DNA from: Anaerolineales bacterium
GTDB lineage: Bacteria; Chloroflexota; Anaerolineae; Anaerolineales; Villigracilaceae
Assembly: GCA_919902735.1 (NCBI GenBank)
Contig: CAKKRM010000261.1
Span: 1 to 59,054 of the forward strand
DNA length: 59,054 nucleotides
Direction: 5' to 3'
A program made the translations under genes and the position numbers. Numbering within the stretch: position 1 is the stretch's first letter; each line of letters opens with the position of its first letter. The notes under the pieces are model-generated. The model was not told the DNA's origin and searched no databases. It was given only the letters and a program-made list of their open reading frames with translations. This document shows, piece after piece, positions 30,956-33,686 of this stretch.

Positions 30956-30961
30956 TATACT
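30956..30961 (+). promoter_or_regulatory. -10 box of pepF
   Basis: TATACT within GGTATACTTGCCC; the same 13 bases occur at the kinase promoter (38479-38491). No convincing -35 box was seen. Confidence 0.45.
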
Positions 30962-30990
30962 TGCCCCATCTTTTCATAAGGAGATACCTC

Positions 30991-32793
30991 ATGACCGTTT
31001 CCGCAACCCGCTGGGATATGACCAACGTCTATCCATCGCTTGAATCCAAGGAATTCAAGATCGCCATCAAGAAGTACAAATCCGCGCTGGATGAAATGGA
31101 AGTATTTTTCAAAAAAGCCAGCAAGGCCGATTCAAAGACCGAGCCGAAGAAACTCGGCAAACTCCTCGGCGAATCCGTGGACAGGTTCAACGCGCTCTTT
31201 GAGCTGTCCAACACCATCAATCCCTACATCTACTCCTTCGTCACCACCGACTCCCACAACCAGAACGCCATGCGCGCCCTCTCGGAATTCGAGCAAATGT
31301 CGGTGCAGGCCAGCGTGCTCAACACCAAATTCCAAGCCTGGGTTGGGACCTTGGGCAAAGCGGCCATAAAGAAAGCCGCAAAAACAAGCGACTCTGCCAA
31401 AGCGCATGAGTTTGCACTCAACGAAGCCGCGGAACAATCCAAATATTTGATGAGCGAAGCGGAGGAAATCCTCGCCGCCGAACTGACCTTGAGCGGGGGC
31501 AACGCCTTTGGCAAATTGCAAGGGACAGTCACTTCACAGCTAACCGTTGATTTTGAGTTGGACGGCAAGACCCAAAAGATGCCCATGCCCGCGCTGATCA
31601 ACCTGCGCTCCCATCCCGATGAAGCCACCCGCCGCCGCGGATACGAAGCGGAGAACATTGCCTGGGAGGGAGTCAAAGAAACGTTAGCCGCCTGCATGAA
31701 CGGGGTCAAGGGCGAGACGCTCATCCTCGATAAAAAACGCGGACGTGAAGATGCTGTCCACGCCTCCCTCGATTTTGCCCGCATCGACCGCGCCACTTTG
31801 GATGCCATGCTCGGCGCAATGAAGGATTCCTTCCCGATGTTCAAGCGTTATTTCAAACACAAAGCCAAACTGATCGGCAAGGAAAAACTCGCCTGGTGGG
31901 ATATCTCCGCGCCGATGGGCAAGACCGGTAAAGTTTATTCATTCGATGAAGCCCGTGATTTCATCGCTGAGAATTTCAACAAATTCTCGCCCGAACTCGG
32001 CGCCTTCGCCAAACGCGCCTTCGACAACAATTGGATCGACGCCGAACAGCGCGAAGGCAAACGCGGCGGCGCGTTCTGCATGGGCGTTTCAAGGGTTAAG
32101 GAAAGCCGCATCCTTGCCAACTTTGACGGCTCGCTCGATCAGGTTGGCACACTGGCGCATGAGTTGGGCCACGCCTTCCACAATGAATGCGCCTATCAAG
32201 CCAATAAAACTGAATTGCAACAAGCCACGCCGATGACCCTGGCTGAAACCGCCTCCATCATGTGCGAGACCATCGTCACCGAAGCCGTGCTGGAGCAGGT
32301 CACCGATCCGCAGGAAATCCTCGCCGTGCTCGAAGCGCAGATGAACAACGCCTCACAGGTGGTCGTGGATATTTACTCGCGCTATCTCTTCGAGAAGGAA
32401 GTCTTCGAGCGCCGCGCCAAATCTGAACTCTCCGCCGACGATCTCAACGACATCATGGAACGCGCGCAAAAGGCGGCCTATGGCGAAGGTCTCGACGAAA
32501 AATACCTGCAAAAATTCATGTGGACCTGGAAGCCCCATTACTACACCAGCGGCTTCTCTTTCTACAACTATCCCTACACATTTGGCTTACTCTTCGCCAC
32601 TGGCTTGTATGCCATCTACCAAAAACGCGGCGCGGAATTTGTCCCCGCCTACAAGGCGCTGCTCGCCGCCACGGGTGAAGCCCGCGCAGCCGATCTTGCC
32701 GACCAGTTCGGCATCAACATCCGCACCAAGAAATTCTGGGCCGACAGCCTCGCCATCATCGGCAAGCGCGTGGATCGGTATTGCCAGTTGTAG
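30991..32793 (+). CDS. M3-family oligoendopeptidase (PepF/M3B type)
   Basis: The 600-residue zinc metallopeptidase has the HELGH motif (His390, Glu391, His394) followed by the glutamate ligand in the M3 ETAS segment. Helical N-terminal residues and a C-terminal half typical of PepF (YNYPYTFGLLFATGLY) complete it. It degrades oligopeptides in the cytoplasm. AAGGAG lies eight bases before ATG 30991; the open frame extends to 30961 but has no signal there. The upstream region is packed with nested repeats. Confidence 0.93.
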   Translation: MTVSATRWDMTNVYPSLESKEFKIAIKKYKSALDEMEVFFKKASKADSKTEPKKLGKLLGESVDRFNALFELSNTINPYIYSFVTTDSHNQNAMRALSEFEQMSVQASVLNTKFQAWVGTLGKAAIKKAAKTSDSAKAHEFALNEAAEQSKYLMSEAEEILAAELTLSGGNAFGKLQGTVTSQLTVDFELDGKTQKMPMPALINLRSHPDEATRRRGYEAENIAWEGVKETLAACMNGVKGETLILDKKRGREDAVHASLDFARIDRATLDAMLGAMKDSFPMFKRYFKHKAKLIGKEKLAWWDISAPMGKTGKVYSFDEARDFIAENFNKFSPELGAFAKRAFDNNWIDAEQREGKRGGAFCMGVSRVKESRILANFDGSLDQVGTLAHELGHAFHNECAYQANKTELQQATPMTLAETASIMCETIVTEAVLEQVTDPQEILAVLEAQMNNASQVVVDIYSRYLFEKEVFERRAKSELSADDLNDIMERAQKAAYGEGLDEKYLQKFMWTWKPHYYTSGFSFYNYPYTFGLLFATGLYAIYQKRGAEFVPAYKALLAATGEARAADLADQFGINIRTKKFWADSLAIIGKRVDRYCQL

Positions 32794-32794
32794 A

Positions 32795-32861
32795 GTGTAG
32801 GTCATGCTTAAAGCGTGACGATTCCATTATTTTTTCGTCACGCTGCAAGCGTGACCTACAC
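32795..32861. repeat. GTGTAGGTCACGCTT palindrome, probable terminator
   Basis: Near-perfect 27-bp arms (32795-32821 and 32835-32861) around an AT-rich loop follow pepF directly. Degenerate fragments of the same repeat occur near 38218-38247. Confidence 0.75.
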
Positions 32862-32874
32862 ATCTTGAGGAGAG

Positions 32875-33324
32875 ATGAAAAAACATAAACTGCTTTTTGC
32901 ATTTTCAATTCTTGCGCTTGCCGTCCTCGCCTGCAGCTCGATCCTACCGCAGGCAAACCCCACCGCCATCCCAACGCAACCACTGCCTCAAACCGAAGCG
33001 GATGTTCCACGCATTAACGTGGAGAACGCCAAAGCCGCATTTGACTCAGGCCAGGCCATTATCGTAGATGTGAGAAGCGCAGACTCATATGCCGCAGGTC
33101 ACGCCGTTGGCGCGATCGCGATCCCATTGGCAAATATCGAGAACAACATCGCCAGCCTCTCGCTTGAAAAAAATCAGTGGATCATCACCTACTGCACCTG
33201 ACAAAATGAACACACGAGCGCCCGTGCGGCGTTCCTGCTTCTTCAAAACGGATACAAAAAAGTGAACGCACTCCTCGGCGGACTCGCCGCCTGGGTGGAT
33301 GCAGGATACCCCATCGAACCATGA
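32875..33324 (+). CDS. Rhodanese-domain lipoprotein with in-frame TGA (candidate selenoprotein)
   Basis: Codon 109 (33199-33201) is TGA, yet the same frame continues for 40 codons with a perfect rhodanese C-terminus (GYKKVNALLGGLAAWVDAGYP) and ends in TGA at 33322-33324. The lipobox LAVLAC gives Cys20 and a short Pro-rich stalk follows. The TGA falls in TYCT-x-QNEHTSARAA, the second position of a C-x-C active-site loop of this rhodanese type, where related proteins have Cys. A SECIS-like hairpin follows, and the downstream gene starts in an ATGA overlap with the final stop. Either selenocysteine is inserted or a recent nonsense mutation is present; I favour the former modestly. Confidence 0.7.
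33216..33234 (+). promoter_or_regulatory. SECIS-like hairpin downstream of the in-frame TGA
   Basis: GAGCGCC (33216-33222) pairs with GGCGTTC (33228-33234), with one G-U pair, around the loop CGTGC. The loop starts 22 nt after the TGA, is five bases long and has G at its second position, which fits the loose rules for bacterial SECIS elements. Confidence 0.5.
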
Positions 33325-33686
33325 AAATCCTATCGATTGACCACATTCAGATTGCGATGCCTACGGGCGAAGAGGATAAGGCTCGCGCTTTTTACGTTAA
33401 CCTGCTGGGCTTTACCGAAATTCCTAAACCCGCTGAGTTGGTCAAACGCGGCGGAGTCTGGTTTGAATCAGACTCCGTGCGGCTACACCTAGGCATTGAA
33501 ACTGATTTTCGATCCGCACGCAAGGCACATCCTGCTTTTATAGTCGATGACTTGATGGGATTTGTCTCAAAAACCCAAAAGGCTGGTTATGAAACCGATA
33601 CATCCCAACCTCCTCTTGACGGATATATTCGTGCGCATATTTTTGATCCGTTTGGGAATCGAATTGAACTGATGGAAAAACAATGA
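33321..33686 (+). CDS. VOC-family (glyoxalase-fold) protein
   Basis: The 121-residue single-domain protein has paired beta-alpha-beta-beta-beta modules. Candidate metal ligands are His8 (IDHIQIAMP), His56 (VRLHLGIE) and Glu116 (NRIELME), as in glyoxalase and catechol-dioxygenase relatives. The substrate is unknown. Its ATG overlaps the stop of the rhodanese readthrough frame (ATGA), meaning translation is coupled to the full-length upstream protein. Confidence 0.88.
   Translation: MKILSIDHIQIAMPTGEEDKARAFYVNLLGFTEIPKPAELVKRGGVWFESDSVRLHLGIETDFRSARKAHPAFIVDDLMGFVSKTQKAGYETDTSQPPLDGYIRAHIFDPFGNRIELMEKQ

Follow-up and report, generated by a model that had tools for sequence, protein, structure and literature searches.

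A rhodanese-domain lipoprotein gene in an Anaerolineales genome very probably encodes a selenoprotein in which UGA at codon 109 specifies selenocysteine (Sec); the probability is put at about 0.93. The gene lies in a stretch of 59,054 nucleotides, hereafter the window. The whole case is comparative and is built from sequence and predicted structure. The features concerned, as read or predicted, are the following.

30961-32793, forward strand: M3 oligoendopeptidase (PepF type), upstream neighbour, kept in 25 of 26 orthologous loci
32875-33324, forward strand: rhodanese-domain lipoprotein gene, 149 amino acids with the predicted Sec109, stop TGA at 33322-33324
32875-32934, forward strand: putative signal peptide with a lipobox (LAVLAC) whose last residue is Cys20
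33022-33300, forward strand: rhodanese domain (PF00581), residues 50-142, from Pfam and from fold matches to PDB rhodaneses
33193-33195, forward strand: Cys107 (TGC), the usual rhodanese catalytic position, with strand 102-106 before it and helix 113-124 after it
33199-33201, forward strand: in-frame TGA, read as U109, which closes the C107-T-U109 site
33216-33234, forward strand: bacterial SECIS-like hairpin, stem 33216-33222/33228-33234, loop CGTGC at 33223-33227
33321-33686, forward strand: glyoxalase/VOC-superfamily gene, overlapping the rhodanese stop as ATGA, present in some relatives only

A preliminary description had proposed an in-frame TGA within a C-T-U rhodanese site and a next gene entered by ATGA overlap, and both are found. 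The TGA at 33199-33201 is in frame with the ATG at 32875, 40 codons (110-149) separate it from the distal stop, and the next ATG (33321) overlaps that stop (33322-33324). With TGA read as U, the 149-residue translation starts with MKKHKLLFAFSILALAVLAC..., continues through a linker and enters the rhodanese domain, where the site reads ...WIITYC-T-U-QNEHTSARAAFLLL... (context YC-T-U-QNEHTSAR). The Pfam Rhodanese domain runs across the TGA (residues 50-142, E 5.2e-15, 56.2 bits versus a gathering cut-off of 22.2). AlphaFold, given 48 aligned sequences and a query in which Sec was entered as Cys and the distal TGA contributed one additional residue, returned a rhodanese fold with a mean pLDDT of 89. 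In this model, C107 terminates strand 102-106, U109 sits in the loop formed by residues 107-112, and helix 113-124 comes next; the closest folds are PDB rhodaneses, including GlpE and YgaP. No variation is seen among 48 relatives at positions D65, C107, U109, R117 and G136 when Sec is counted as Cys. The surface location suggested earlier agrees with a lipobox pattern that 25 of the 26 orthologues match, and the product is probably an extracytoplasmic lipoprotein.

The neighbours, namely PepF, the VOC gene and an acyl-CoA dehydrogenase gene found beyond PepF in most loci of the closest group, provide no sulfur context. A long inverted repeat (32796-32860, TGTAGGTCA...GCGTGACG / CGTCACGC...TGACCTACA) separates the PepF and rhodanese genes, and more palindromic repeats occur in intergenic DNA elsewhere in the same genome (L016 and L154).

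The homologue search covered 60 related whole genomes and the source genome, and its best 30 matches were read in the correct frame and strand; the genomes compared are mostly draft bins and the genome searches are samples. TGA occupies the Sec codon in 30 of 30 homologues, none of these close homologues has TGC or TGT there, and Cys appears at this position in distant homologues only (YCAC in L112 and L150). From the TGA to the stop there are 39-41 sense codons in each (63 in one), the distal stop itself differs (TAA, TAG or TGA) and no frameshifts have accumulated. Codons +12 to +39 after the TGA display dN of 0.08-0.32 versus dS of 0.36-2.4 where defined, a sign of purifying selection about equal in strength to that on the upstream part. 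Since the same M3 peptidase gene (PepF) adjoins the rhodanese gene in 25 of 26 loci of the closest group, the genes of this group are considered orthologues; the named members are Chloroflexi or Anaerolineales metagenome bins. An ordinary stop, leaving a lipoprotein cut short at 108 residues or a pseudogene in decay, would agree with the fact that TGA terminates elsewhere in this genome, including at the rhodanese gene's own distal end. Such a reading is nevertheless extremely improbable and was rejected, because the TGA is shared by all homologues read, the downstream frame is intact and under selection, the rhodanese domain has its core past the TGA, and the hairpin that follows is conserved at the RNA level. 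Thus, the earlier preference for Sec insertion over a dead gene, with forty conserved codons beyond the TGA, is upheld by the homologues and by the co-variation of the hairpin.

The 7-bp hairpin with a 5-nt loop at nt 22, also described before, is present at 33216-33234. It reads GAGCGCC-CGTGC-GGCGTTC and starts 14 nt 3' of the TGA (first base at nt 15, loop from nt 22), with a nearly always paired core at 33218-33222/33228-33232. Because the single window sequence only modestly beats its shuffles (z -1.38; 23 of 200 shuffles as good), the case for the hairpin rests on 98 homologous sequences. Among them, 79 were picked without any hairpin pattern and form the cleaner set, and about 19 were added through a pattern containing part of the hairpin. 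An Rfam search for SECIS elements or riboswitches gave no match above threshold at the hairpin. In the 79 unique downstream sequences, 6.16 of the 7 stem pairs form, versus 3.85 after synonymous-codon redraws, and the fold is better than 95% of redraws in 45 of the 79 (these sequences are related, and the count carries no formal probability). Synonymous variation is nearly absent at codons +5 to +11 (ACG AGC GCC CGT GCG GCG TTC) and freer on either side. Each of the five core pairs is formed in 97-98 of the 98 unique sequences, i.e. 99.6% paired overall, versus 20-60% in a control that shifts the 3' strand by 1-3. Compensatory changes from CG to TA occur at +18/+30 (L028/L031 and L144) and at +20/+28 (L161 and L231); in L131, where Ser has the codon TCA and not AGC, matching substitutions on the other side of the stem keep three consecutive pairs. 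These double changes belong to separate branches. Collectively, these comparisons argue that the hairpin is conserved beyond what the protein requires. The second base of its 5-nt loop is G in 98 of 98 sequences, which fits the small apical loop containing G of bacterial SECIS elements (PMC1088965).

The earlier proposal to look for selA, selB, selC and selD in the source genome was followed, and all the proposed checks that were run point to Sec. Three of the genes are present (selA 550 bits, selB 339 bits, selD 352 bits), and tRNA-Sec (selC) was not found in the assembly; the best Rfam tRNA-Sec matches in this genome were rejected as selC, ARAGORN calling them tRNA-Ser, Leu, Trp and Gly. Most sister genomes have tRNA-Sec, and in those of the same genus it lies ~200-1300 bp from tRNA-Pro(ggg). 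In the source genome, contig C259 begins 131 bp from tRNA-Pro(ggg), and this is the flank on which tRNA-Sec would be expected. The missing selC is therefore most simply explained by a contig break, since C259 ends beside this conserved neighbour. The gap in the assembly and the general possibility of UGA readthrough in bacteria would favour a selenium-free decoding, either through a near-cognate tRNA or with another amino acid inserted. This is very unlikely in view of the SelA, SelB and SelD found here, the tRNA-Sec of most sister genomes, and a hairpin position and loop G that fit bacterial SECIS elements. In addition, the remote homologues L112 and L150 have Cys at the site, as expected for Cys/Sec exchange.

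Two observations concern the machinery itself. The selD gene of the source genome (L016, G000:C167:31614-32549, minus strand) has an in-frame TGA at its own Sec/Cys site (ACAGUASKL) and is a second candidate selenoprotein gene. In a relative (G017, C2:1971690-1973574), selB is split between two neighbouring segments (positions 2-134 and 138-580), for which a frameshift or an assembly error may be responsible; the TGA rhodanese of that genome is intact.

As a selenoprotein, the lipoprotein would be made by SelB and tRNA-Sec decoding UGA at codon 109 under the guidance of the downstream hairpin. After export and lipid modification at Cys20, it would be held on the outer face of the cytoplasmic membrane. 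The fold suggests a sulfurtransferase role. Cys107 and Sec109 in the rhodanese active-site loop may act as a thiol/selenol pair, one of which would accept sulfane sulfur from a persulfide, a polysulfide or thiosulfate; the pair may release this sulfur via a Cys-Sec selenenylsulfide and be re-reduced by a partner. That such sulfane-sulfur handling is the main activity is a tentative assignment. It is also quite possible that the selenoprotein serves mainly in thiol/peroxide redox or in metal/metalloid binding, with the rhodanese fold as a scaffold for CxU, and a purely redox function competes seriously with the sulfur reading. Among selenoproteins whose function is known, most are oxidoreductases (PMC2398784). 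Simple sulfur transfer does not usually involve a vicinal Cys/Sec pair, the first residue of the site may also be Sec (UxU), and the fusion of related domains to Na+/H+ antiporters suggests redox sensing in those members. Against this role, the catalytic Cys position and D65, R67 and R117 are kept, which fits bound-sulfur chemistry.

Single-domain rhodaneses of the GlpE, PspE and Alr3790 types share the fold and the position of the first catalytic Cys. They have one active-site Cys and a shorter loop and are not known to have Sec or a CxU pair. Rhodanese selenoproteins with CxU have been described as form 3, covered by model NF041203 rhodanese_LYCAU (PMC13188914, PMC9312934). They have the same fold and the same site, in which Cys occupies the customary catalytic position and Sec follows two residues later, and NF041203 is the best NCBIfam match of the window protein (84.1 bits, E 6e-24). 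This score is below the curated equivalog cut-off of 115 bits, which is reached by 0 of 301 Chloroflexota genomes though dozens have TGA matches; for these reasons the window protein is not filed under NF041203. The motif also differs (LYCAU there, YCTU here), and the window protein is a lipoprotein with PepF upstream, whereas its relatives are membrane-anchored by a transmembrane (TM) segment, antiporter-fused or UxU. The window protein is predicted to work like NF041203 members and to belong to a variant clade of CxU rhodanese selenoproteins. Other Sec rhodaneses in the 2026 inventory are forms 1, 2 and 4 (UxxS, UxxG) and TsoB (UxxxxU, a rhodanese/DsbD fusion) (PMC13188914). All place Sec near the active site of a rhodanese domain, but in another position or motif; TsoB is, moreover, a much longer fusion, against whose model NF045694 the window protein scores 30.5 bits (cut-off 805).

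The distribution of the site was explored with a joint pattern, TGH-NNN-TGA-N15-hairpin, searched across 400 Chloroflexota genomes. It gave 72 matches in 62 of them versus 0 for the reversed control pattern, so that the motif is not a chance occurrence. A selB gene is present in 57 of the 62 motif genomes versus 254 of the 338 others (Fisher p 0.0025, indicative only, as the genomes are related). Four of the five motif genomes without a selB match have tRNA-Sec, and the fifth (G185, 82% complete) has neither; in total, 61 of 62 have selB or tRNA-Sec. The 108 TGA rhodaneses collected comprise 97 CTU, 3 CAU, 7 UTU and 1 UAU. A CTU selenorhodanese domain is C-terminal on a Na+/H+ exchanger in 20 loci by sequence motif, and the fusion (PF00999) was Pfam-checked in four (L126, L127, L141 and L145). 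From sequence comparison, a Chloroflexota-wide clade emerges that would include lipoprotein, membrane-anchored, soluble and Na+/H+-antiporter-fused forms.

Two further groups were noticed. A second CTU rhodanese group in the same genus (L178-L196 and others), about 45-50% identical, has an N-terminal transmembrane helix anchor and no lipobox, and was not found in the source genome. Rhodaneses with TGA five residues past the active-site Cys (YCSGSTUGES, YCTGATUGSS) occur at L162, L164 and L165, and possibly correspond to the known UxxS form 1.

In eight genomes (G324, G265, G162, G209, G296, G185, G177 and G147), TGA-NNN-TGA stands ahead of one conserved hairpin. The corresponding loci, all outside the window, are L144, L146, L158, L159, L160, L161, L228 and L229 (YUTU or YUAU), in which both site cysteines are apparently replaced by Sec. 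The crude pattern test used for the orthologues found no signal peptide in these copies. In a tree built on the short domain, with many weak branches, L158 (UTU) groups with the CTU copies L133/L139 (support 1.0), apart from the other UxU copies; the change from C-x-U to U-x-U thus probably occurred at least twice. UxU rhodaneses are not in the 2026 selenoprotein inventory (PMC13188914), and a search of open-access literature found no paper on them or on Anaerolineae selenoproteomes.

While CxU rhodanese selenoproteins were known already, the Chloroflexota-wide variant clade with its UxU copies appears to be new. Because standard gene callers stop at this TGA, annotations of the relevant genomes probably list the protein in truncated form. 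Chloroflexota probably hold a large selenorhodanese family missed by the current annotation model, in which C-x-U changed to U-x-U more than once, creating a candidate natural diselenide site presumably served by one shared downstream SECIS hairpin, and in which other branches sit on Na+/H+ antiporters. The U-x-U copies would provide a test case for a diselenide in a bacterial rhodanese site, and for one SECIS serving two UGA codons one codon apart. More generally, the family would mean that selenium is used at the cell surface, and on antiporters in other branches, across a major environmental phylum.
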